41,386 nucleotides of DNA, taken from assembly GCA_018398765.1 (NCBI GenBank), contig JAHBMJ010005259.1, positions 8,605 through 49,990 on the forward strand, read 5' to 3'. Below are positions 7,708 through 34,555 of this stretch, piece after piece (position 1 is the stretch's first letter; every line of letters starts with the position of its first letter). Made by a program: the position numbers and the translations under genes. The notes beneath the pieces are model-generated. The model was not told the origin of the DNA. It did not search any database and saw only the letters and a list, made by a program, of their open reading frames with translations. Source of the stretch: Chromera velia (Eukaryota; Sar; Chromeraceae).

Positions 7708-9390
7708 TAGTGACCATGTTTGATTTGATTTGATTTGATTTGATTTGAGCTTCAACCTCAAATATTTGATATTTGAGGTAAGATTTGAGGTTAACCTCTT
7801 AGGGTTCCTCACTAAGTCACTGACTTACTGTCACTCTGATCATTTTTCTCATGACAATAGTTATCAGAACATTTCTGATGTGTGTTTCAAAAATTTAAAA
7901 AAATATATATAAAATTATAACTTATCAGTTCCGTAAAAAAAATATGCCTGTATGGCAGTGTATATACACTAGTCACTGAGACTCACTCTAGTACTAATAG
8001 AGATTAAGAACATAAAATTGATAGATTTGAAATTGCATATAACTTTTTGTTGATACGATAAAGTTAGAGCACGTACTAAAATTGAGGTGACAATCACTCA
8101 GCTTTATGGCACTTCCTTTTCCTCTTCTTCATGATCACTTTCTTCAATGTGAATCGAATCGATCGGTGGTGGAAGCTGCTGAGAGCTTTTTTTCTAGCTT
8201 TTCGGCTTTTCAGGAGTGGGTGCTCCTCGGCTTTTATTTGGTTGCGGAGAGATGACAACGGGGTGAGACGGAGAACCACGCACACGTTTGCTATTGCTGT
8301 TGGTGTTGGAACCGTCGATCGCCAGGAACCCTGACTTTCCTGAATGCGACCACATGTTGAGGGTGATCGACACTCGTTGGGTCGCTGCTTTTCTCAACCT
8401 GTCTTTGATTGACAGAATAATCTTGTTCTTCAGTGTTGGGAGCAGAAGTCTCTGCACCTTCCCCACAGATGGGAGATCGTAGCAGGGGTCCAGTGCCTTG
8501 ACCAGCTTTCGCTAGAGCTTTTGCAATGCCTCATTTTCTGTGAGATGAGGACAGCCAGCACTGGCTAGAAAGTCAGTGGTCAGCATATTGCACTTGATTC
8601 TCTTCTCATGCATCTCTGCATATCGTGCGACCACGGCTTCTACTTCATCTTTGGTAGGGAAAAACGTTCGCACGTCAGGCTGCTTCGTCTCCCCCACCCC
8701 CTCCGACCGCTTTTCCTGTCTTTCTTGGAGCAGCTGCACATGTTTATCAGACGTGATCATCAAGCCATGCTGATTGATGAGGTGGGTTTGAAAAGAACTC
8801 GTTGCCGCTGCTGCATACTCACAGCTACAAATAGTTTCTCCTTCCCCCTCGGCTCCTTGTATTTTCACCTGACACTGAATTATATTTGCCCCCTTTTGCA
8901 CGGACCATATTTTTTTTGCGTACCCGGCTCTAAAAATAAATGCCTCCTTCTTCCCGTTCGACCTTGTCGGATTATGTGACATGTCTTTACAGGGTGTAAA
9001 ATGTTTGCAGACGTTCAAAAAGGGGGCCGTAAAAGATGTTCCAGCACCAGAAAAGTCAATACAGCTGTTCGGGAAAACGTTCAGCTGATCGGTTTACCTC
9101 TACATGAAGTAAAAGGGGGTGAAACGTCAATTTCAGTGCAGCTCAAAACTTTTTTTTTTGAGAGTAAACCATCAAGATTTAGGTTTTTTCATTTGAATCA
9201 GCATGCATGACGAATCGGTACTTACAAAATTTTTTTTGGGACTTTCATATTTGAGGTTGAAAGTCATATTGATCAAATATTTGATCGTATTTGATAGGTC
9301 TTTAAACACTAGGTCCTACCTGACTGGATATTTGATTTAAGCTTAAGCCCTACCTCAAATCAAATCAAATCAAATCAAACATGGTCACTA
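7708..9390. mobile_element. hAT-superfamily DNA transposon, internally deleted
   Basis: A 1,683-bp element with matching ends. The left end reads TAGTGACCATG followed by six TTTGA units (7708-7749). The right end, reverse complemented, reads TAGTGACCATG followed by five TTTGA units (9354-9390). That gives perfect 37-bp inverted repeats apart from one extra unit. Subterminal copies of AAATATTTGA lie inside both ends, as in many hAT elements. It is flanked by an 8-bp target duplication with one mismatch. Its minus strand carries an N-terminal BED-finger/hAT transposase with an internal stop and no catalytic C-terminal half, so it should be non-autonomous. Confidence 0.88.
8194..8982 (-). pseudogene. 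hAT transposase N-terminal half, stop-interrupted
   Basis: From ATG 8982 the protein runs 156 residues. It has a BED-like zinc finger (ICSCEYAAAATSSFQTHLINQHG, with C-x-C then H-x4-H). A Glu/Lys-rich linker and the family's entry segment (FLASAGCPHLTENEALQKL) follow. A TAG at 8512-8514 interrupts it. The same frame then continues to 8194 with RKLVKALDPCYDLPSVGKV and RVSITLNMWSHSGKSGFLAI. This matches the hAT segment leading to the first catalytic Asp, where the usual Asp before the W reads Asn-Met (LNMW). Everything after this (the remaining catalytic residues and the hATC dimerisation domain) is missing. After the 8194 stop the frame runs on to an acidic tail ending near 8104. The TTG-initiated extension to 9018 is not needed, because ATG 8982 is the first Met codon. 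Confidence 0.8.
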
Positions 9391-12574: not shown

Positions 12575-14461
12575 ATGAAGGCCCCTCAGAAGGTGAAGCT
12601 GACCTACTTCAACATCGAGGGGGTGGCAGAGAAGGTGGGCCTATCCAGCTGTGTGCATGCCGTCTCCTGCAATTAGATTTGAAAAGAGAAATTCAAAATA
12701 AAGTCCCGCTTAGCTGTCTACTTTCTAGTGCGAAGTGGAAAAATCGAGAGGCAAAACTCTTAGCTTAGAAAGAAGTCCCTACATGAATCTGTGTGTGCAT
12801 GTGATGCAGGTGCGTCTGGCACTTGAATCTGTGTGTGCATGTGATGCAGGTGCGTCTGGCACTTGAATCTGTGTGTACATGTGATGCAGGTGCGTCTGGC
12901 ACTGCTCCTGACCGGCACCCCCTTCGAGGACGAGCGGATCGCCTTCCCCCAGTGGGCGGAGATGAAACCGAAAACACCCTACGGCCAGGTACTTTTTTTT
13001 TAAAAGTGTTTGGAGGCGAGTGCGGGGAGACAGGCGGGTATGCACGCTGACCAATATCAGAGGAAGAAGGGGGAGGGAAAGGAGACGGGAAGGACGGACG
13101 TCAGGAAAGAAGGAAAGAAGGGAAGGGGTGGATTTTCGGAGGGGAAATGAGGGCGAGGAAAAGACGGATAAAGACAAGCAGAAAGTGATAAGTAATTGAG
13201 ACGCTAGTTGAAAATACAGACGAGCATGAGAAGCGACAAGACGGGAAAAAATGTGCTTTGGAAAAGGAGGAAGTAGACATCTTCTTCAGCCACATTTCTC
13301 AAGATGCTTCTGTCTTGAGAGGGGGATATTTTTCCTTCCGCCCTCTCTCTTCTTTTCATGCAGATACAGCCGTTGTTTGGTTTTCTGCATCCTCTTTGTT
13401 CCATGGTGCCTGCATAATGCGTGGTGCAAATGAAGTAGAGCTTGGTTTTCTCTATGGGTTTCTGTGGATGCATGCAGCTGCCTGTGATGAAAATCGACGA
13501 CGGAGAGGAGTTCGCTCAGAGCGGTGCCATGCTCAGGTGGGCCGGACGTCTTGGGGACTCCTCCCTCTACCCGGTGGAGGACGCGAAGAAGGTGATGGAA
13601 ATCGAGGAGGTTCTCGGACTCTGTGGTCAGTCGGAGGATCGAATTAAGGGGAATGAAGAAGAAAATGAATGTGATTGCATAAGTGTGCACGGTCATTTCC
13701 TTCGTGGAGAACTGCGAGGAGGTCTGCGGACGCAGTAGGAGACTGTTGTTGGGTTTGTGTGCTCGCAGTTCATTCTGCTGCGTGCGCATCCGTCAGAGGA
13801 AAGATTGCAGCAATGCCCCGCTTTAGCGAATGTAGTGTTAAAACAAGAAATCGAAAATTTGCATGGTCATCCTTCTTATCCGTGATGCTTGCCAGACGTT
13901 TGTTTGTCCTGACTTTCTCTGTTGTCTCTTTGTTTGCTTTTTATTTTCCCTCGGGGGGACCTGGATGATTCATTGGCCCCCACTGTCGCACACCGCTGCC
14001 TCGCTGAAAAACAAAACCGACACACCCAAATGCATTTGTGGTTCGTCTTCCGACATTCGAGCCTTTCTCTCTTTGCAGACGACTTGTCAAAGGCCTGGGG
14101 TCCTGCCCTGTACATTTCCATGGCCCCCCAAAACTTCGGGTACCCCCCTGAATTCTCCAAGACGGACGAGGGGAAGGCGAAGGTGAAGGAGCTGAGGGAG
14201 AAATTTGTGGCAGAGAAGCTGCCGGATCTGATGAAATACTTCGGGAGCAAATTGAAGAAGCACGGGGGGGACAAGTTTCTGTGTGGGGACAAGCCGACGA
14301 TCGCAGACTTGACTGCCGTCCCCCTTTTCCGCAATTTCCAGAAAGGTCACATCGACTTTGTTCCGAAGGATTGTCTAGACAAGTATGAGGACATCTGCGC
14401 GTACATCAAGAGATTCATGGAGTTGCCGCCTGTGGCTGAATGGTACGCCTCAAAAGCATAA
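12575..14461 (+). CDS. Glutathione S-transferase (Sigma/Mu-like), four exons
   Basis: Exons 12575-12634, 12890-12988, 13478-13625 and 14079-14461 join in frame to 229 residues, the usual cytosolic GST length. It would conjugate glutathione to electrophiles or reduce peroxides. Residues 1 to about 85 form the thioredoxin fold. KLTYFNIEG carries the likely catalytic Tyr11, YGQLPVMKID has the cis-Pro glutathione-binding element, and EFAQSGAMLRWAGR is the Ser-containing glutathione-contact motif. The all-helical C-terminal domain contains LCGDKPTIADLTAVPLFRNF, the conserved N-capping/hydrophobic staple region. All introns are GT-AG (donors GTGGGC, GTACTT, GTCAGT; acceptors ATGCAG, ATGCAG, TTGCAG). 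The join between exons 3 and 4 splits an Asp codon (G|AC). The acceptor of exon 2 is triplicated (separate entry). There is no targeting leader, so the protein is probably cytosolic. Confidence 0.93.
12785..12903 (+). repeat. 40-bp tandem triplication spanning a 3' splice site
   Basis: Three near-identical 40-bp units start at 12785, 12825 and 12865. Each contains GAATCTGTGTG, ATGTGATGCAG and the first 15 bases of GST exon 2 (GTGCGTCTGGCACT). They differ by one base in the left half (TGCATG versus TACATG) and at the last base. Possible acceptors end at 12809, 12849 and 12889. Only the last keeps the GST frame, because 40 and 80 are not multiples of three. Confidence 0.9.
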
Positions 14462-18675: not shown

Positions 18676-19611
18676 CTAGTTGTACAAGAAAACCACAGAA
18701 TTCTCACGACCAGCTTGCTCCCCCTTTGCCTTTTTCTTCTTCTTTATCTTCTCTGTTGTATAGCTCTTCCCCTCTAGCTTCCCCTCAGAGTCCTCTAAAC
18801 CTTCATCTTCCTTCTCTGATTTAACAATATTTTCATCTGGAAGTGAAGCGGTGTTTGGAGGGGGACGAGCTCTGTAAGCATCTAAGAGGGAAGGGGGGCT
18901 GGATTCTTTCAAAAGGGGACAACAGCCGCAAACGTCTGTAAGAGACGGCGAGGTGGAGTCATTCAGAGGGGGACGAGTGCCGTAAGCGTCTGCCGAAGCT
19001 ACAGAGGCTTGTACGGAGGTGAGAGAGGCTCTTGTTTGCGGGTACGGAGGTGGCAAGGCTTGTTCAGAAGTGGGAAAGACTCCAGGGGGACGGTCATCTA
19101 CTTGTGTACATAGAGTTAGAATGGCTTGTACGGAGGTAGGAGAAGCTTCTGCTTGCAGACACGGAGGCGGGATGGCTTGTGCGGAGGTGGGAGAGGCTTT
19201 TGCTTGCAGACACGGAGGCGGGATGGCTTGTGCGGAGGTGGAAGAGGCTTCTGCTTGCAGGCATGGAGGCGGGATGGCTTGTGTGGAGGTGTGAAAGGCT
19301 TCTGCTTGCAGGCACGGAGGCAGGATGGCTTGTACGGAGGTGTGAGAGGCTTCTGCTTGCAGGCACGGTGGCAGGGTGGCTTGTGCAGAGGTGGGAGAAG
19401 CTTTTACTTCTGGGCACGGAGGCGGGGTGGCTTGTACGGAGCTGGGGGAGGCTTTTGCTTGCAAACACGGTGGCGGGGTGGCTTGTGCAGTGGTGGGGGA
19501 CTCCAAGGCTTTTGTTTGCAAACATGGAAGCGGGGAGGCTAGTGCGGAGGTACGAGAGGCTTCTATATGCGGTGGGAAAGAGCGATTGCCTAGGCGATTG
19601 CTACCGGCCAA
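18676..19611 (-). CDS. Repeat-rich ORF (17-residue Pro/Ala/Ser/Cys repeats), unrecognised
   Basis: A 311-residue ORF from ATG 19611. Residues about 25-205 consist of imperfect 17-residue repeats of the form AQAIPPPCLQAEASPTS. A diverged Pro/Ser section follows, then an acidic stretch (KSEKEDEGLEDSEGKLEG) and a Lys-rich tail (IKKKKKAKGEQAG). No domain is recognised. The repeat unit is 51 bp, a multiple of three, and lacks stops, so plus-strand frames (19126-19542, 19179-19823) are also open. The minus strand is preferred because its ORF runs past the repeat into charged, non-repetitive sequence on both sides. It may be an exon or a chance ORF over a minisatellite. Confidence 0.4.
   Translation of the reverse strand: MAGSNRLGNRSFPPHIEASRTSALASPLPCLQTKALESPTTAQATPPPCLQAKASPSSVQATPPPCPEVKASPTSAQATLPPCLQAEASHTSVQAILPPCLQAEAFHTSTQAIPPPCLQAEASSTSAQAIPPPCLQAKASPTSAQAIPPPCLQAEASPTSVQAILTLCTQVDDRPPGVFPTSEQALPPPYPQTRASLTSVQASVASADAYGTRPPLNDSTSPSLTDVCGCCPLLKESSPPSLLDAYRARPPPNTASLPDENIVKSEKEDEGLEDSEGKLEGKSYTTEKIKKKKKAKGEQAGRENSVVFLYN
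19007..19580. repeat. 51-bp minisatellite, about eleven units
   Basis: Units beginning GCTTGTRCGGAGGT start at 19124, 19175, 19226, 19277, 19328, 19379, 19430 and 19481, exactly 51 bp apart. Diverged units lie at 19007, 19058 and 19538. The unit at 19481 carries a 6-bp insertion, and a 15-bp offset precedes 19124. All length changes seen are multiples of three, which keeps the minus-strand frame open. Confidence 0.88.
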
Positions 19612-22367: not shown

Positions 22368-24590
22368 TTATAAATTTGAATTCATTCCCCTCTTAGTGCC
22401 GTGTCCTGCTGCGGCGTCTTCTCGACGGTTGACTTCCCACCCCCTCTCTAAAAGGGCCGTCAGACCCTCTTTCCATCTGACTGTCAATGCAGATGCCAAA
22501 GGAGCAGGATCAGACTTCCCATCCCCTTCCTTGTCTCTGTCTTTCTCTTTTTGCCTCTCTTGGAGCTCTGCCAAGGGGAGTGTCTCGATGATTCGCAGCA
22601 GGAGAGGAGGGCCTCTGGTGTCCTTAGACAAAGCGATCAGACGGGAAATCGGGGAGGAGACAGTCACCCCCAAAGGCATCTCGGGAGAGCAATTGGGAGG
22701 GGAGTTCTGTGGATGATCATTCTGGAGGATCAAATCGGGTCTTGCTCCTAGACTTACAAGGGTCTTTACAAGCCCCCACTGCACGGAAATTGAGTCTTCA
22801 CCTCTCTTGTACGACTTTGCATCTCCCCCAAAATCAGAGAGAACAAATTCTAAGGGTGTCCCCTTCCAAATTTGATTCAAACACGAGGAGGGAATGTCGG
22901 AACATAAAATCTTCACTTTCCCCACACCATTAGGGTCTGCGTGTGCCTTTTCACAGAGGAAAGAAGCAAGGGTGGAATCTCCAAGCAAGCATGCAAAGAG
23001 AAGGGGGGACTCAACAGGGGAGTCAGGAGGATCTGTGTCACAACGTCCTCCGGCATCGACCAGCAGATGCAACACAGACCAGAACTCATCCTCGAGTACA
23101 GCCGAACCCCGTGCCGCATACACCCGGATGGCAGTGGAGATGGGGGAGCTACCCGTGAGAGTAGCTCGCACTGCTTCTCTGTAGAAAGTGTCCTCGTCTC
23201 TTGGGGTATTGTAATTTTCATTCACGGAGACGCAAGCAAGGAGGTGGCACTCCGTTTCGTTTGGATCTGCCCGCATTTTCAGCAGAAGGGAAATCAGGGG
23301 AAGGTTCTTCATGCGAATCGCTTCTAAAAGAGGCACGGAGGACTTGTTCGATGGGCCTAATCTCCTGCAAGACGCCCCTCTTCGAATAAGGGCCTCTGCA
23401 GTCATGTCCAACCCCTTCTTGATGGCCACACACAAGGCGGCCTCCCCCCCCAATGTCCGAGCATCCAAATCGACCCCCCCATCTGCTAACACCTCCACTG
23501 CCGCTGCTATCGCGGCATCTCCACTCACATGCCGCCCTGGGCATCCTCTGCTGTCTGTACACACAGCGTTGGCAACCAGCTCGCTCCCCCACCTCCCTGA
23601 ATGCCTCTGATTGTACTCCCCGACTTCGAGTAAGATCTGGATGACTTCACGGTCTACAAGCACACACGCGAGACTTAACGGCGTGTGTTCATAGGCTCTC
23701 CCAAAATGCCACCAGTGGAGGTCACACCCTCCCGCCCCCCCTCCAAACAACCACTTGACACCCATCCAGTCCAACCCTATCCAGGTACTCCAATCCAAAC
23801 ACCCAGTTTCTTTTGCAGCTCTTGCTAGGGATCTGAGAAGACTTAGACCCTTCTTTCTTTCCTCTGCAGACAGGTTCTTCTGTACCCCCCGTGCTTCCTC
23901 CATCCCCCTCCACAACTTGCCTGCTCCCAATACTGCAACCAGAGTATGCAGGGGGGTGGGACCTGACAGGACTTCGGTTCTGGATATGCCTGATCGGTTT
24001 GCTTCAGCCCACTCACTCATGTCTACCCTTCCACCTGCATCCAAAAGTGCTTGGGCGCAATCAAAATCTCCGTATCCTATAAGTACACTGAGGAGTGGAA
24101 TGGAAAAGAGGCCGGGGGGAGAAAAAGGCCCCCCCGGCCCGTGCACCCACGAGTTTGTCTTCACCACCCCTCCCTCTAGTAAACCTTCCAAGGTGTCCCT
24201 CTTTCTCAACCTCGGTACGAGGGCCCACGGCACATCTGTACACAGGGACACAACCGGCCTCCCCGTCAGCAGCTGAAGGCAATTTTTTGCATTTGGCCAC
24301 CGTTCAATCAAAATGCGCAAAAGAAAGGGGAAGAGAGGCTCAACCCCTTCCAAGGCGAGGAACGTTCCCACCCTCTGCGCGTCGTCCCTTTTGAAGCACT
24401 CTTCGAAGAGGTCCCTCAGCGCCTCCTTCTCAGATACAAAGTCCCTCAAGCCCAGACAGGCACTCACCAGGCCAAGGCGAGAGGAGTCCCTCTTCAATGC
24501 GGCCAGAGCCCTCGAGAGAGAAGAGACTTTCCAGAAAAGTCGAAGTCCCAAAATTCCATTCGCGCAAAGGATACGCACAACGTCTCGCAT
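22368..24590 (-). CDS. Ankyrin-repeat protein
   Basis: A single-exon, 740-residue ORF from ATG 24590. Diverged ankyrin repeats are spread along it. Clear ones include LLSVLIGYGDFDCAQALLDA, TPLSLACVLVDREVIQILLE, AALCVAIKKGLDMTAEALIR with RRGAS, PLLEAIRMKNLPLISLLLKM with RADPN, and SPLLFACLLGDSTLASFLCE with AHADPN. The protein is therefore probably a binding scaffold. The N-terminal 120 residues are helical and Leu/Arg-rich without a clear motif, and there is no signal peptide or membrane segment. The C-terminal 25 residues look unstructured. Its partner is unknown. It is divergent from the dynamin-like gene, with 628 bp between the two ATGs. Many unrelated proteins share this architecture, so function cannot be named. 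Confidence 0.85.
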   Translation of the reverse strand: MRDVVRILCANGILGLRLFWKVSSLSRALAALKRDSSRLGLVSACLGLRDFVSEKEALRDLFEECFKRDDAQRVGTFLALEGVEPLFPFLLRILIERWPNAKNCLQLLTGRPVVSLCTDVPWALVPRLRKRDTLEGLLEGGVVKTNSWVHGPGGPFSPPGLFSIPLLSVLIGYGDFDCAQALLDAGGRVDMSEWAEANRSGISRTEVLSGPTPLHTLVAVLGAGKLWRGMEEARGVQKNLSAEERKKGLSLLRSLARAAKETGCLDWSTWIGLDWMGVKWLFGGGAGGCDLHWWHFGRAYEHTPLSLACVLVDREVIQILLEVGEYNQRHSGRWGSELVANAVCTDSRGCPGRHVSGDAAIAAAVEVLADGGVDLDARTLGGEAALCVAIKKGLDMTAEALIRRGASCRRLGPSNKSSVPLLEAIRMKNLPLISLLLKMRADPNETECHLLACVSVNENYNTPRDEDTFYREAVRATLTGSSPISTAIRVYAARGSAVLEDEFWSVLHLLVDAGGRCDTDPPDSPVESPLLFACLLGDSTLASFLCEKAHADPNGVGKVKILCSDIPSSCLNQIWKGTPLEFVLSDFGGDAKSYKRGEDSISVQWGLVKTLVSLGARPDLILQNDHPQNSPPNCSPEMPLGVTVSSPISRLIALSKDTRGPPLLLRIIETLPLAELQERQKEKDRDKEGDGKSDPAPLASALTVRWKEGLTALLERGWEVNRREDAAAGHGTKRGMNSNL

Positions 24591-25218
24591 CCTGACTGTT
24601 TACTTGGAGAAAGAGAGAAACCTACTGTACAGAAACCTGCACGACAGTCACTGTTTCCGGACTAGGGTCATATATATGAGAGCCACGCACGCAGGTCTTG
24701 ATCTGCATGTTGTATTAATAGAAGTGACAGTGAGATGACGGAAGGCATGGATTCCATGACTCGTCGTGCGGGACCGTTGTGAGTTGCACGTTGCGCCACT
24801 GGACTGGAAAAGGCGAAGAAGCAAGGCACCTTTACACCTCTACCCCGAATGCCAGGTCTGACAGCAAGCTGTATAGGCGTCGCGTAAAGCAGGCATGTCA
24901 GATTTTTGTCAGACAGTGTGCATTGAATTTTGTCTGACCTTCGCGCGGAATGAGGAGCAGTGAGGAGCATGCATGCATGTGACAAAACTTCGCGGAGGCC
25001 TTCAAGCGCGCATGCCGCGCGCAGCTTGCATGGAGACGGGATTCAAGCCGAAAAAGCGGCTGGCGATAGTTGGTGAGAAGTTGTGCACTGAGAACTCTAA
25101 CAGTGACTGCAGTGACGCAGTTTTACTTTGACTTCTCAAGGTCCAGCTGTATTTCACTCGTTACATATGTTTTTTCTGAGAGATTCCGCCTTTCTCGTTG
25201 CTCACGCTGTCACTGAGA
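24591..25218. promoter_or_regulatory. Divergent upstream region of ankyrin and dynamin-like genes
   Basis: The shared 5' region. It holds TATATATGA (24669-24678 on the plus strand; reads TCATATATA on the minus strand) about 80 bp upstream of the ankyrin ATG, and a TGCATGCA motif at 24970-24977. No gene is seen in it. Promoter roles are inferred. Confidence 0.45.
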
Positions 25219-27399
25219 ATGGAGAAGTTCCGCAAAGTTCCGGAAATTTTGGACAAGGTGGATGATGTCCGCCGTCTCCTTTCCAGGAGTCCCGATTTAG
25301 AGTCCGAAGTTCCGCAGTTCGTTGTCGTTGGGCTGCAGTCCTCTGGAAAGAGTTCTGTGTTTCAGAGGACTTGCAAGATCAGGCTTCCTAGGGATGCCAA
25401 TGTGTGTAGGCGGGTGCCAATTGAACTTTGCGTTCGGCGATCACCAGCCGGGTGCGAACCGAAAATCCGAGTTGGGAAGAAAGCCTTCGACTCTGCCGAC
25501 AGTGAGGCAGTGGAGAAGGAGATCAAGTCTCTCCAGGACGAAATTAGGGGAGACAAGGATTTCTCTGATCAAGTCGTGGCGGTGGAGGTGGAGAGCAGAG
25601 AGCTCCCCAACGTGACTCTTATCGACCTGCCAGGGTACTTTTTTGCCCGCAACACGAAGAGACGCGCCTGCAGGGACTGGTTGAAGAGCTCATCAACTCC
25701 CGCATCAAGAAGAAATCCGCTCTCATCCTCCACGTTGCCCCCCTGAACCAGGACGCAGGGACGATCAACACATGGGCCATTGTCAACGATGCAGATCCCG
25801 ACAAGCAGCGCACTGTCATTGTCCTCACCAAAGCCGACCTCATCCCCTCCAGTCAGGTTCTGGTGAGGCGTTTGAAGGACATTATGAAGGACGACAGCGA
25901 CAGCGAGGCCTGCAGGTACTTCATCGTTGACGGGAGGGCCGAGGAGGACGAGCAAGCGTCTCTCGCTGAAGTGCGAGAGTGGCTGAGTGAGTCTCCTCTC
26001 ATGGAGAAGGTGAAGATCGGCTTGCCCAATCTTCTGGGGAGTTTGGAGGACGTGCTTGTCCGTCACATTCTCCCCTCCCTGCCCAAACTGAAGGAGTCCC
26101 TGCAGACGCAGGAGAGGGCCTGCAGAAAAAAGCTCGAGGAGATCGGCACAGAACCTCCCAGGTCGACCACAGCGTTGATGGGCGGCTTCACTGCCTTTCA
26201 GACTGCGTTGGAGGACTCCCGAGGAGTGGAAAGCACATTTGGGGGTCTGCAGAAGAGAAATTGAAAAGATGGCCACTGATGTCCTCAGAGTGGACTTCAG
26301 GTCGCTTGGTGAGATGAACGCTGACCAGATTAGATCTGCGTACACCTTTCTCACTGAGAAGTGCGGATTTCCGTTTCCGCCTCCAAAGAAGGGCGACACA
26401 ACTTGGACCCCACCAGAGCTGCAACTTGCGCTCAACGTGCGGCGAGTGATGGAGGAGCACAGGGGCATCCGGAACGTTCAGTTTTCGGATTCCAGCACCC
26501 TGCTGCAGGCATGGATGCCCATTTTTGTGAAGAGTGTCAGTGGCATTCTGACGGGGTTTGTGAACACGGTTTTTTACATCCTCAAAAAGAAAATTGCCAG
26601 CCCCGGCCTCAGGGCTCTGTCTGCAAAATTCAACGGTATGCTGGCAGCAGCAGAGACCGGGGTTCTCCGTCCCAAAGTGTTGCAAGTGCTGTCTGAGTAT
26701 GAGCAGAGGGCAAAAGACTTCTGCGAGGACGTCCTCTCGTGGAATGTCGGGACCCTGCAGTTCACCTCAAACGAGCATTATTTGACAGAGAGTGGGGGGT
26801 TGACAAAGAGTGAGGAGGAGTGCCTGGAAAAGCAGTCCGACAAAGCCAGGTTCGAGCTTGAGCCTCTCTTGAATGAGGCAGGGCAAGTGCGAGGGTTTTG
26901 GAAAGTCCAGGCCAAGTTGCTGCCTGACGCTCTTCAGAATCAGGTCGTGATGATTGCAGAGAGGGCGGTGAAGGGGTTGAGGGGGGAGATAGACAAAGTG
27001 AGTGAGGAAGCTTTGAAGGTCGTTCAAGAGTCTGCACACATTGCCCAGGAGAGAGAGCGCCAGAGACAGCGCTTGGAGGACATCACGAGAGCTCTTGACA
27101 TCGTGATGAGCATAGAGACTCTCGATGTGCCATCTGCGGGAGGGCCCGCTCTTTCGTTCGGTGAAGAGGAAACGGACGAGTCTGCAGCAGCTGCAGACGA
27201 CGCTGAGGCTCCCGACCCGAGAGGGTCCAAACGTGCCCGGCAGTCTGAGGAGCGAAGTCAGAGCTCTGAAGTTGCAGGCGGGGGGAAGAAGCCGAAAACG
27301 AAGGAGGGCAAAGATAATGAGCAGCCTGGAAATGCTCAGAGCGAAGCGGCTAGGGACGAAGGGATGGGAGACGACGAAGGTGAGGGAGAAGGACTGTAA
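25219..27399 (+). CDS. Dynamin-superfamily GTPase, two apparent frameshifts
   Basis: Dynamin-type large GTPase, a family that remodels membranes by GTP-driven assembly. From ATG 25219: P-loop VVGLQSSGKSS (residues 36-46), then LPRDANVCRRVPIEL where the G2 Thr expected after Cys reads Arg64, and G3 DLPG (136-139). The frame then breaks at a run of six T (25639-25644). It continues one frame back with ALILHVAPLNQDAGTINTWA and G4 TKAD, and shifts again between about 26205 and 26235. The third frame carries the helical stalk, a GED-like helix (QVVMIAERAVKGLRGEID) and an acidic tail with a KKPKTK basic cluster. TAA at 27397-27399 ends this frame. A strong donor (GACGAAG|GTGAGG, exon end 27379) just before it suggests splicing into the MATH exons. 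The shifts may be assembly errors or real decay. Confidence 0.8.
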
Positions 27400-27604
27400 A
27401 TCACGTATGGCCTGAAGCAAGAACCTTACACGCAATGCAAATAATTCGTTTTTTTCTTCCAAAGTAACCGCTACTGCCTCTCATTGATTTGAAAATTCAT
27501 ATTGCCGTGCACTTTCACGTTGAGATCGTGTGGTGTGACTTTTGCGCCTTTTTTGCATGCAAGACGCGCATTTTTGTCTTCTGCCTCCTTCTTATCTGTT
27601 TCAG
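27380..27604 (+). other. Predicted intron joining dynamin-like and MATH parts
   Basis: 225 nt, GTGAGG donor and pyrimidine-rich TTTCAG acceptor, with phase 1 on both sides. If retained, translation ends at TAA 27397-27399, giving a short isoform that lacks the MATH domain. Confidence 0.6.
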
Positions 27605-28511
27605 ACACGCTAGAGTTGAATGTGCGTCTTCCGGACTTTGAGGCGAAGGCGACCAGGATGCAGAAAGATGGCTTTGTTGAGAGTCCTCCATTTGTCTTCC
27701 AGGTTGGTGAGACTGCTCCTAGGACTACTCTCATCTAGAGTTTGTCAAATCTCAGAAGGTCTCCTGTTCGTCCCTTTTCTTCCCCTTCATTTTCTTTCGC
27801 GTGAACTGAATCGGACCTCTCTCTCTTGATTGTGACAGTGACCTCTCCTTTGGCTCGTCTTCTCTCTTCCCCTTTGGCTCTCAATCGGTTTGTCTGTGTG
27901 TTGGTCAATTTAACCTTCAGTATTTTTCTCTCACTCCCCCGTCTTTATTTCCTGCCTTCGGAGAGATCCGATTCTTCTCCTACCTGAACCGAAAAAACCT
28001 CAGGGCACCTTCACTCCCCAGCAGCGGATTTCTAGCTCCCCCTTCTTGCTAGGTCTTTCAACTATATTTGAGACTGGGAACCCGCCTACTTACAAAGTTT
28101 GTTCTTATTTATGGCTAGTTGCTCTCCTCTTGTGCCCTCCTCTCGGCCCTGCCGTCTGTTTTTGAGCTCAAATCTAATCAGTACCCCGTATTGCCGTCGA
28201 CTTGTTTTCAGGACCATCGATTTTTTCTGGAGGTCTACCCACAGGGAGATTCCCACGCCCGCGATGGACAGGCCTCGGTGTATCTGTGTCGGAAGGATGA
28301 ATGCAAGGGCACGCTCCACTACAATGTAGAGCTGTGCAATGGAGAGAGCACAATGAGTGATACTTGGGACTTGGACGAGTCCTATGGTTGGGGGGAAGAG
28401 AACTTCTGCTCCTCAGAGGCTCTTATGTTTGCAGCAAGGGCAACAGAGCGGGGGGCTCTGGAGTTCCGTGTGAAGCTCTCGGCTCCGAAGTCGAACAGGG
28501 AGGGCAGCTAG
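27605..28511 (+). CDS. MATH (TRAF-homology) domain exons, probably 3' end of the dynamin-like gene
   Basis: Exons 27605-27702 and 28212-28511 join in phase (FVFQ|DHRF) across a 509-nt GT-AG intron (GTTGGT to TTTTCAG). The product is a compact beta-rich MATH domain: LPDFEAKATRMQKDGFVESPPF, then FFLEVYPQGDS, ASVYLCRKDECKGTLHYNVEL, GWGEENFCSSEAL and ALEFRVKL before TAG. MATH domains bind peptides and oligomerise with partners in TRAF and ubiquitin-ligase adaptors. Exon 27605 has no start codon of its own. A strong acceptor (TTCTTATCTGTTTCAG) precedes it and it opens with two bases of a codon, exactly what the donor at 27379 leaves (G|AC, Asp). It is therefore read here as the C-terminus of the dynamin-like protein. 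Confidence 0.72.
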
Positions 28512-30129
28512 AGCGTGAGTGATTGAGTCCGCATAAACGACCCCACATGCGATCGAGAACTACTTGCTGCTGCGCTCTGCGGCCAATCTGAAGAGAGGAT
28601 TTCTTTGGCAGAAGGGACGAAGCAAGGTCGAAGGGAGAGAAGGGAGAATCTGAATTGATTTTCTTGATTTCATGCAGAAAGCATTTTTGCATTGTCTGTG
28701 CATTCGTCTCTCCCCTGTTTTTCGTCAGACTTCTGTTCGCTCTCTCTCCCCCGTCCCTTTTGAATGCAAGTTCATCCTTGCCTTGCTTTGATGAAGTTTC
28801 TTTTGGTTGCGTGTAGAAGACCGGTGCATGACAGTCGGCGTGAACTCGTAAATGCCCTTTGGGCTCACAACACTGTGTGATGCGAGAGAGAAAAACCAAG
28901 GCACATCGCATCAGTTGAAACCGAAGAGTAGATCGGGTAGTATTGGAGTTCGGAAACTGATCGTGCCTATCCATCAGCATCTTTTGCGCTCTTTTTGCAC
29001 CATTCTGGGGGGGGTTCTCAAGTTGACACTCCCCGGTTGAGCCAGGATGCCATGCAGTTGACTTGGTTTTTTGCTTCCCACAGCTTGCTTGCAAGGTAGA
29101 GGGAGGGACCTGTGAGGGCTCTGTGACTTGCAGACTTCCATGAGGCGAATGGAGAAGTATTTTGACATGTCCTCTCCTTGGCTGATTGGCGATCTCGAAT
29201 TCGTGTTCAAAATAGTGGACCGCGGGGCAAACTGGAACATTAATCCTATCCGATCCTATATAAAATGCACTCTTTCGTCGATGTTTGTGCTGTGGCAGTC
29301 ATGTATGATCGTTTACTTGGATCGAAATGGAGTGACCAAGGTTTGTAATTCGGGGACCTGGTTTTGGTTGGCGACTGTCAGTGATTGATCGTCTTTGGGC
29401 TAGTCTTTAGGACTTTTTGTATGTGTTTTTTACTTTTTTTTCTGGGTCTTTTTTTTTTTAATCACAGCTATATTATGAGGGCACGTGTGTTTATTGGGCT
29501 TATGATTCTAGTTATGATTATTCTGGTTCAGGGTGATGATGATGATGATTGAGGGTTAAATCCTAGATTTAGCGACGCCAAATCCCAAGCCACTAACAAG
29601 GCTTTGAGGACAACCCAGAGCACACATTCATGGGGGGAGGGGTGGAGGAAGCCTGTATGCCAGTCGGATTGATTCGCCTCAACTTGCCTTATCAACAGAA
29701 TGGACCTTCTTGAGACAGTCGGCTATAGCTTTGGAACCGCTTTTAGGCAGGATTGTGCATAACAGCAATACTATTATTATTATTAATCGGTCTATTATTA
29801 ATCGGTCTATAGGCCATCATGCAGTGCATGAGTCTAGGACAATGCTTTATTGCCCCTTTGCCAGACCTGCATCATACAACGGGAGGGGGCTTCATTCTCG
29901 CAACTCTAAACACCCTGCATCTAGAAGATGCTTTCTAAATCGTTGATGTCGTTTCCCTTCTGTGGGAGGAGTGCGACAACTGCAATAGAGACTCTCAGGC
30001 AGTAGAGGCAGACAGGAAGACCGGTGGAGAGGGGGGACGGGAGATGTACGTGGGAGATAGAAAAAGAACATTCAAAAGGTGAAACGGAAAGAGAGGTAAG
30101 TAACCATCATATGCATTGAATCGCAGGCC
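28512..30129. other. Spacer, no gene seen
   Basis: It contains a TATA-like box TATATAAAAT at 29257-29266 with no recognisable gene after it, a GATGATGATGATGATTGA run near 29535, and ATTATTATTATTAATCGG repeats near 29774-29810. An open frame at 29128-29388 has no recognisable motif. Confidence 0.4.
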
Positions 30130-31714: not shown

Positions 31715-32935
31715 TCAAACAAAACGTAACTGTAAAGCATCGAGGCAGGCAACATCTGTCTTTCTCAGTGGGATTGTTTCCAGTCCATACAGCGCGACTG
31801 GCAGCCAGAAGGCCTTGAACAAAGTAATTTTAGAAAAGGAAGAAACAAAGCCTAAAGAAGAGAGAGTACCAAACACAGCCCTCAGTGCCTTCTCTGCCGC
31901 CTCAATGCGGGCTTTGACTGTCTTGCTAAGGTCCCCGCCCTCAAAAACCCAGTTCCCCAAATACTTATATTTACTCACCGCTTCTACTGGTCTGCCTTTA
32001 TAAAGAAAAGGGGTCCGGGGCACTAGGTCGGGGTGGGGGGAGGAGAGACGCATAACTTTTGTCTTTTTTAAATTTACCTTCAGGCCGTGCTCCTTACAAT
32101 AGCCCTCGAGGCGAGACAGACATTTCTGCAAGTCTGAAGCACTGTGGGCAAACAGAATAAGGTCGTCAGCGTACCCGATGCTTTTAATTAAAACGTCAGA
32201 CAGTCTGACAGGAGTCTCTCTATCAGTATCCCCAGCCGAGCTTTGATTCCTGTTTTTATTATCGGAGCTGACAGACTTATGCAGATTGTTGATGAAAAAA
32301 AGAAAGAGGAGAGGAGAGAGAAGATCGCTTTGTTTTACTCCTCCGCCTTCTGGAAAGCATTCTGTTGCCCCATCCACCCAAGCCTTCACTTGATTATACA
32401 TCAAATGAATCATCCAAACATCGGCTTAGCTTACTCCTTCCTCCCTGAGCCTCTCTAATATTTTGACCCAAGGAACTGTATCAAACGCCTTGCTGATTCA
32501 GAAATCAATAAACGTGGCAATCAGAGGGCTCTTCTTCTTTTTGGAGCTGAGAATTAAGGAAGACAGAGCAGCGAAGGCCTCCCTTATCCCTACCCCCTGT
32601 CTGAAACTGAGCTGCCTTTCGTCAATTTTCACCTCTTTCCTGATCTTTGAGTCCATCAATAAAGCAAAAATCTTACCCAGAAGCCCCATAATATGGATCG
32701 GGCGCCATTCGTTACAGTCGAGACTCGGCAGGCCTTTAGAGACGGGAGCAATGCGCAACACATTCCAGCGTTCAGGCCAAAAAGAAAAAAGGTGAAATAA
32801 ATTAAAAAAGATAAAGAGTAGCAAGCGGGAGAGAGGAGAAAAACTAAAACATAACGAGAGGTGACAGGAGCTAACCCCATCTAAACCCAACGCCTTCTTT
32901 GGGTCAATTCCTTTCAGTGTTTCCTCAATTATGTA
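31715..32935 (-). pseudogene. LINE reverse transcriptase domain, frameshifted
   Basis: Two open pieces cover the fingers/palm. The first has KALGLDGVSSCHL, ERWNVLRIAPVSKG, EWRPIHIMGLLGKIFALLMD, RQLSFRQGVGIREAF and LIATFIDF. After a break near 32490 the second has GGGVKQSDLLSPLLFLFFIN, IGYADDLILFAHS (the catalytic YADD box), LEGYCKEHGLKVNLKKTKVM and YKYLGNWV. The order and motifs match non-LTR reverse transcriptases. The break and neighbouring stops mark it as inactive. Confidence 0.85.
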
Positions 32936-33184
32936 TATAGAGAAGGCGGGCTGAGAAGGAGGGGGAAAGGCCAGACCAATAGGTGCAGGTGGAAGACCAG
33001 AACCGTCGAAGACCCCAGCCCAGAACTGAGTGAAAGAAGATGCAGCGGGTTTATTATCTCCTCCCCTCTGTGTTTTGATTTTCCTGTTCCATTGCTAAAC
33101 TTTCGAGGGGTTAACTGCTGCAGCTTCTCTAGCTAGTCTCTCTGCTGTCTGTTGCTCGAGCTTACTCCTTTTTACTGCAAACAG

Positions 33185-34555
33185 TCAAGCTCTTTCTCTT
33201 CTCAGTTTGACATATTCTTTTCGCAGAGGGTGAGAAGGGTTCAGGACATGTCTTGCCTTTTCCTCTACCTCCTTCACCTTCAAATGAATCAGGCGGCATT
33301 GTGGGTCCCACCAAGCCTGACGGGTGCTCTGCTTTCTCTCAGACTGTCTTCTCTTCTTGGATGCCTTTCCCCCATCTACTACTGCACCCACTTTGCTGTC
33401 TGCCAGCTTTTCTTCCCAGGAAAGACCCAATTGTTCCAATTGGTCAAGATAAGAAGCCTTGCTGAGAGAGTTGGGGGGGGGAGCATTCTGAGGGGGAGGT
33501 GGTTGTGGGGGAAGGGGTGGTGGGTCAGGGGAAGGTGGGATAGGGGGAATAACTTGACCTCTTTGACGCAGTTCGTTTACCCCTCTGTCGAACAGGCTGG
33601 GAAAAACCATCTCAGAAAATGGTAGGACCGCTCTGGTAAGAGGAATCATTTCGTCATCAGTCACCGGGGAAGTTCTATTAACAATGAGGAGAGGGGGGAG
33701 AAAAGAGAAATTCTTTTCATCCGTGGGGGCATGCAGAGGATCAGAAAACATAGGGGGAGGAGATGAATCAAGAAAAAAAGAAAGAGAAAGAACAACATGT
33801 TGAGGGGCAAAGTTAGCTTCCAGGTTTGAAGTGGTAGAAGACCAGGCTAGCAAAAGAAAAGGATCTACAAAAAAGTGATCAATCGCTGTTGTTTCTTCTT
33901 CTGCTTTAAAAAAGGTGTACGGGCCCGGAAAGGAGACATCAACACCCAGCCTCTCACATTTCAAGGACAGGCCGTGGAGAGGAATTAAGTTAGAGCGTTC
34001 ACAAAGATGGATCAGCCAATTCTCTTGCTTGTCAGGTTGACTGCCATGGCTACAGGCTGACAATCGAGAGGGCTTGCAAGCATCAACTTTGTTCTTTTCT
34101 CTGCTTTCATTAGTGGGACATAGCATTCTTTCCCAAGTCAGCCCTTCCGGCACCCGAGTCCCCAGCTTGCCGTTCATGTCCCCAACCAGGATACGCAAAT
34201 CCTCGAGAGGTACCTGACACAGTACATCGATCACGCCCTCTCTCTCTCTATCTCTTAGCTCCCTGTCTCTCTGTCTCAGGTCAGACCCTCTAGGTAGAAA
34301 GTACACACCGAAAACATGGAGGACTCTCGTGGCTGACTCCCCTCCTTCTGAGGGAGAAGGCACATTCACTGACAGACGGACCAGATTTTAACCTACCAGC
34401 TCCCATCTTGGCTGCAGTTCATGAACTAAAGAATTCCTGACTAGGATGCATACACCCCCTGTCCTTGCTTCCCCGATGGTTACGGCTTTCCTTCTTGACC
34501 CTTCCGCTTTGATTTTCCTTCTCAACCACTCAAAGTGATTGGGTAGGGAAAAAGG
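33185..34555 (-). pseudogene. LINE apurinic-like endonuclease domain and Pro-rich linker
   Basis: An upstream piece, RTGGVCILVRNSLVHELQPR, is followed by an in-frame TAA and then a long open stretch with ILVGDMNGKLG (the GDFN-type motif) and GPYTFF with TTAIDHFFVD (the ID-H/Y motif). The final motif, usually SDH, reads PQH (NFAPQHVVLSLSF), losing the catalytic Asp. After this comes a Pro-rich linker (PPIPPSPDPPPLPPQPPPP), then a Lys/Arg-rich helical segment with QAWWDPQC. In LINEs this leads into the reverse transcriptase. The domain is probably inactive. Confidence 0.8.

Follow-up and report, generated by a model that had tools for sequence, protein, structure and literature searches.

Does a dynamin-like GTPase of the alga Chromera velia acquire, through splicing, a MATH domain at its C terminus, as an earlier note on this locus had proposed? 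The gene in question lies on the plus strand of a 41,386-nucleotide window, that is, the whole stretch of DNA that was analyzed (positions 8,605 to 49,990 of contig JAHBMJ010005259.1, assembly GCA_018398765.1). Judged from the sequence, there is a somewhat better than even chance (probability about 0.55) that a single spliced gene encodes a putative Mx-like protein of the dynamin superfamily, in which a BSE, a GTPase domain, a stalk and an acidic linker are followed by a C-terminal MATH domain. The proposal that splicing unites the GTPase and MATH parts thus survived as the best model, on the grounds of a strong donor, fitting phases, a MATH score that needs both downstream exons and the lack of a plausible separate start, but the GTPase frame on which it was built is not intact.

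Gene model and splice sites

The predicted exons and introns are set out in Table 1. Splice sites were scored with generic weight matrices, rather than ones trained on this organism, and were ranked among the 2,292 GT and 2,958 AG sites of the plus strand of the window. The donor of intron 1 (AAG/GTGAGG, GT at 27380) was within the best 2 of the 2,292 GT sites and sits 17 bases before the stop codon of the GTPase frame at 27397-27399, or 20 if counted to the end of the stop; the acceptor TTTCAG ending at 27604 was in the top 0.7% of AG sites. The sites of intron 2 were weaker (donor 95th, acceptor in the top 3%). Phases are compatible at both joins, the first (27379/27605) giving G/AC and the second (27702/28212) being of phase 0, and T content is 34.7% and 36.3% in the two introns versus 20.0%, 26.5% and 21.3% in the three exons. 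The donor, the acceptor, the phase fit and the further phase-correct splice at 27702/28212, all of which had been read from the sequence in the earlier note, were therefore borne out, and the MATH_2 profile score rises on making the second join. If intron 1 were left unspliced, the frame would continue for seven codons before a stop, as in any unspliced message, and a short form without the MATH domain, produced by intron retention, is only a possibility. Directly after the MATH stop, at 28509-28523, is a donor-like AGC/GTGAGTG that resembles the donor beside the GTPase stop.

Table 1. Predicted structure of the GTPase-MATH gene (positions are those of the window)
Feature	Position	Strand	Content	Evidence
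Exon 1, frame segment 1	25219..25643, end approximate	+	ATG, BSE-like helix, G1, G2 site, G3	Dynamin_N 62.1 bits; PDB Mx1 alignment
Exon 1, frame segment 2 (other frame)	25644..26219	+	Remaining GTPase domain with G4, stalk start	Dynamin_M 33.5 bits, Dynamin_N 23.8 bits; codon preference
Exon 1, frame segment 3 (first frame again)	26218..27379	+	Divergent distal stalk, marginal GED, acidic low-complexity linker	
Intron 1	27380..27604	+	GTGAGG...TTTCAG, 225 nt, phase 1	Splice scores, composition, sequence
Exon 2	27605..27702	+	Start of MATH-like domain	MATH_2 profile from position 9 of 136 (joined exons)
Intron 2	27703..28211	+	GTTGGT...TTTCAG, 509 nt, phase 0	Join lifts MATH_2 from 17.6 to 31.4 bits
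Exon 3	28212..28511	+	Rest of MATH-like domain, stop TAG	

Upstream, an ankyrin-repeat open reading frame (ORF) of 743 codons (22371-24599, minus strand) lies in head-to-head orientation to the GTPase gene, the ATG of which is about 620 bp away, and the two may possibly have a promoter region in common. Downstream, a LINE-like element with interrupted frames occupies 31715-34387 on the minus strand; RVT_1 was matched at 31718-32425 (E 1e-15), and the neighboring ORFs at 32501-33094 and 33188-34387 had no Pfam match. Elsewhere in the window, an SBF/bile-acid-symporter-like transporter (74-1354; Pfam E 4.7e-38) begins, on our reading of its sequence, with a hydrophobic leader ahead of a transit-like region, an arrangement known from algae with complex plastids. 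Together with the spliced genes and the LINE-like reverse transcriptase, it suggests that the DNA comes from a eukaryotic alga of this kind. Two tandem repeats were seen: a 40-bp unit in three copies (12784-12903) at the point where the first intron of a gene resembling glutathione S-transferase ends, which triplicates the acceptor because GATGCAG and the opening codons of the following exon lie within the unit, and a 51-bp unit in 8.6 copies (19121-19564) that is open in frame on both strands. Rfam gave no matches across the window.

An Mx-like GTPase with an altered G2 site

The pieces of the GTPase frame were joined with X for searches. The Pfam Dynamin_N model matched the full-length joined protein with 89.3 bits, above its cut-off, and 43 distinct PDB sequences matched the GTPase at E values up to 0.001. 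Mx1 was the best of these (E 1.6e-30, over residues 6-317 of the joined pieces), and Mx2 was second (1.8e-27); dynamin-1 (1.3e-24) and plant DRP1A (2.2e-19) were also matched. By this ranking of similarity among solved structures, which is not a tree, the predicted GTPase is Mx-like, so that the description of it as dynamin-like holds and can be made more precise. Over the GTPase domain, 64 of 200 aligned residues are identical to those of Mx1.

Beyond the GTPase domain the resemblance fades. Dynamin_M was matched in the joined protein at 36.0 bits, above its cut-off, over positions 54-132 of 287, and the GED model reached 13.5 bits against a cut-off of 21.4; no PH domain was present among the eight Pfam matches at E values of 1 or less. 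No dynamin in the PDB was matched by the distal stalk. A PDB match of this region to initiation factor 6 (E 4e-4) was taken as chance, and NCBIfam matches to the YsxC GTPase and IF-6, both below cut-off, were not used. The AlphaFold model of the segment 26218-27159 had a pLDDT of 41.5, too low to serve for a fold search. The approximately 80 residues ahead of the MATH part form an acidic, low-complexity linker with two motifs that resemble nuclear localization signals, KRAR (27229-27240) and KKPK (27286-27297).

Three of the four G motifs are intact, namely, G1 (GLQSSGKSS, 25330-25356), G3 (DLPG, 25624-25635) and G4 (TKAD, 25827-25838). At G2, Mx1 has IVTRCP and the C. velia protein VCRRVP; both ungapped phmmer alignments and MAFFT place an arginine (25408-25410) opposite the Mx1 threonine, and moving the alignment by one residue would substitute a cysteine, so neither candidate is threonine or serine and the G1-G4 set is incomplete at this site. 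In the portion of the literature consulted, the G2 threonine is described as permitting hydrolysis through magnesium coordination, the T65A substitution as inhibiting endocytosis, and conservation of the G motifs as absolute, save for G4 in guanylate-binding proteins (PMC8805674). Since the threonine is replaced, GTP hydrolysis is probably impaired, and the protein may bind GTP but hydrolyze it poorly, unless the change reflects decay or error; if real, it is a departure from motifs that the same source, as far as it was available, calls invariant (PMC8805674).

Two compensating frame changes

The earlier note treated the GTPase as one ORF, and this does not hold: the gene runs through three frames that overlap, the first from 25219 to about 25640, the second from about 25644 to 26219 and the third from 26218 to 27399 (from stop to stop, 25180-25746, 25569-26264 and 26179-27399), and homology switches frame near positions 25640 and 26218. 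A codon-preference model, for which four coding stretches from elsewhere in the window served as training set and which used no homology to the GTPase gene, favored the same three frames in the same order. Preference went to the first frame in all 5 windows with starts at 25219-25579, to the second in all 5 with starts at 25669-26029 (that at 26119 was undecided) and back to the first in all 11 with starts at 26209-27109; windows at 27199 and 27289, in the acidic linker and beyond, leaned slightly to a third frame, and the last (27379) was noncoding-like. The two changes cancel each other.

Introns are unlikely to account for either change, although this judgment is less strict for the second. 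At the first, 23 candidate introns of fitting length were listed, and the five with GT donors (the others have GC) would all delete G3; at the second, 7 of 18 listed candidates have GT donors, which ranked 790th, 1,297th or 1,858th of 2,292. Programmed frameshifting was considered, and nothing points to it. The frame changes therefore suggest either an assembly error or a young pseudogene.

A MATH-like domain across two exons

When exons 2 and 3 were joined, the Pfam MATH_2 model was matched from the start of exon 2 with 31.4 bits (E 2.5e-7), 0.6 bit below the curated cut-off of 32. Exon 3 alone scored 17.6 bits and, with a shuffled exon 2 placed before it, 18.1 to 18.9 bits in four of four shuffles, so the profile supports the join across intron 2; when exon 3 (two controls) or the whole (two controls) was shuffled, no MATH match was obtained. 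The local score against the MATH domain of SPOP was 51, compared with a shuffle mean of 27.3, and was reached by none of 1,000 shuffles; MAFFT identity to SPOP was 21% and the BLASTP E value 0.023. The other MATH model in Pfam gave no match, and phmmer against the PDB returned no MATH protein and a single match at E 0.19. We regard the domain as MATH-like on good but not formal support: the domain reported in the earlier note is favored by the E value and the shuffle controls and falls just short of the curated threshold. Of the two domains that the earlier note proposed to look for by profile search in the joined product, Dynamin_N was recognized, and MATH_2 scored 25.1 bits in the full-length protein, under its cut-off.

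Weighing the alternatives

One spliced gene is the simplest reading of the GTPase and MATH parts, and the evidence that makes it the best model also bears on two alternatives to it. The parts might belong to separate genes or transcripts, with the GTPase ending at 27399 and the first exon of the MATH gene located elsewhere; the GTPase frame does have its own stop codon, and the parts are joined by prediction rather than by a transcript. We consider this improbable, given that the two are separated by merely 205 nt, that the phase of the strong donor ahead of the GTPase stop matches that of the MATH exon, and that the three ATGs of the gap (the region to which this count applies, as opposed to sequence further upstream) yield no plausible first exon, the sole in-phase donor scoring -10.2, in keeping with the earlier observation that the MATH exon lacks a start of its own. 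It is even less probable that the MATH call itself is wrong and that exons 2 and 3 encode some other small beta domain or are noncoding. Besides the subthreshold MATH_2 score, such a reading could draw on weak codon preference, in exon 2 (0.044, against 0.066 in one reverse frame, with 25% of 231 stop-free null stretches as high) and in exon 3 (0.083, the best of six frames, with 12% of 440 stop-free null stretches as high), and on an unreliable single-sequence AlphaFold model of exon 3 (pLDDT 40.0), which was folded alone without relatives; it sits poorly with the E value of the joined exons, with the lower or lost scores of the shuffled controls and with the SPOP score that no shuffle reached.

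A greater, though still minority, share of the probability falls to the reading that a dynamin-MATH (or dynamin) gene has recently become a pseudogene, with real frame changes, a protein that has ceased to be made and a loss at G2 that belongs to the decay. Two changes occur in 2,161 nt of this gene, against none in the 5,160 nt of three other long ORFs of the window (SBF transporter, metallophosphatase and ankyrin), a comparison that leans toward real changes but employs ORFs chosen for being open; with the same proviso, the chance of both changes hitting the GTPase gene, were they distributed uniformly, is about 0.09. The missing G2 threonine, in a motif set reported, in the part of the source consulted, to be absolutely conserved except for G4 of guanylate-binding proteins (PMC8805674), would also fit decay. 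Against this, no stop interrupts the 853 codons read, apart from the two frame changes, codon preference is kept in the correct frame on either side of them, G1, G3 and G4 are intact, and the two changes offset each other in frame.

Comparison with known proteins

If the single spliced gene is taken as the working model, its predicted product resembles Mx proteins in having a GTPase domain whose nearest solved structures are Mx1 and Mx2 and no PH domain detected by Pfam, and it differs from them in the added acidic linker and C-terminal MATH domain, in the lack of the G2 threonine and in a distal stalk and GED that are barely recognizable. With dynamin-1 and other dynamins it has in common the GTPase domain and the start of the stalk; unlike them, it has no detected PH domain, and a MATH domain stands at the tail, a position occupied in dynamin by a proline-rich segment. 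In TRAFs and SPOP, the MATH domain is part of a protein that oligomerizes. The C. velia sequence is likened to these by its MATH-like part, which is fused to a GTPase rather than to a RING or BTB part and has W-G-E where SPOP has W-G-F, the phenylalanine of which contacts the substrate in SPOP.

Database searches beyond eukaryotes yielded no confirmed relative of the MATH part or of the two-row alignment with Mx1 in viral or prokaryote contigs, nor of the first GTPase segment in viral contigs, sets in which a eukaryote gene is not expected, and PHROGs had no families for any of three proteins compared with it.

A 2025 survey of Mx-like proteins (Mx1/MxA, MxB, DRP4C, MxF and others) found them, according to the sections consulted, spread over most supergroups of eukaryotes, with alveolates, stramenopiles, haptophytes and other algae among the hosts; those researchers left open whether such proteins outside animals act in defense or against viruses, and a MATH tail is not named in the part of the main text covered here (PMC11789081). 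In the portions searched of the literature on dynamin with MATH, TRAF or meprin-TRAF homology, no dynamin-MATH fusion was found: none is described in the available text of PMC3947992 and PMC5758549, the word "dynamin" is absent from that of PMC8195603, and neither "dynamin" nor "MATH" occurs in the main text, as available, of the report on chromerid genomes (PMC4501334). If the gene is real, the pairing therefore appears to be new, within the parts of the literature searched.

Possible function and meaning

We suggest that the stalk would drive oligomerization, as it does in Mx proteins and dynamins, and that the resulting oligomers would display many MATH domains on flexible linkers, where, once clustered, they would bind short partner peptides by avidity; by analogy, the MATH domain might itself contribute both trimerization and partner binding. 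A GTPase without the G2 threonine would bind GTP and hydrolyze it poorly, and weak hydrolysis would favor a stable scaffold. Because the threonine is gone and hydrolysis is predicted to be poor, we propose a nucleotide-gated scaffold or adaptor more than a membrane-cutting motor, and its role could be in cell-autonomous defense, as for Mx. Taken as a whole, this would amount to a new Mx-like architecture in which a GTPase lacking the G2 threonine is combined with a C-terminal MATH domain, nucleotide-dependent assembly of the stalk clusters TRAF-type peptide-binding domains into a possible cell-autonomous immune scaffold of the alga, and splicing decides whether the MATH domain is included. We advance this tentatively, as a rather doubtful extension of the gene model.

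Were it true, two families known from animal immunity would be brought together in one protist protein by the joining of an Mx-like GTPase and a TRAF-type MATH domain, and the MATH tail would offer a defined part whose partners could reveal what such proteins bind.
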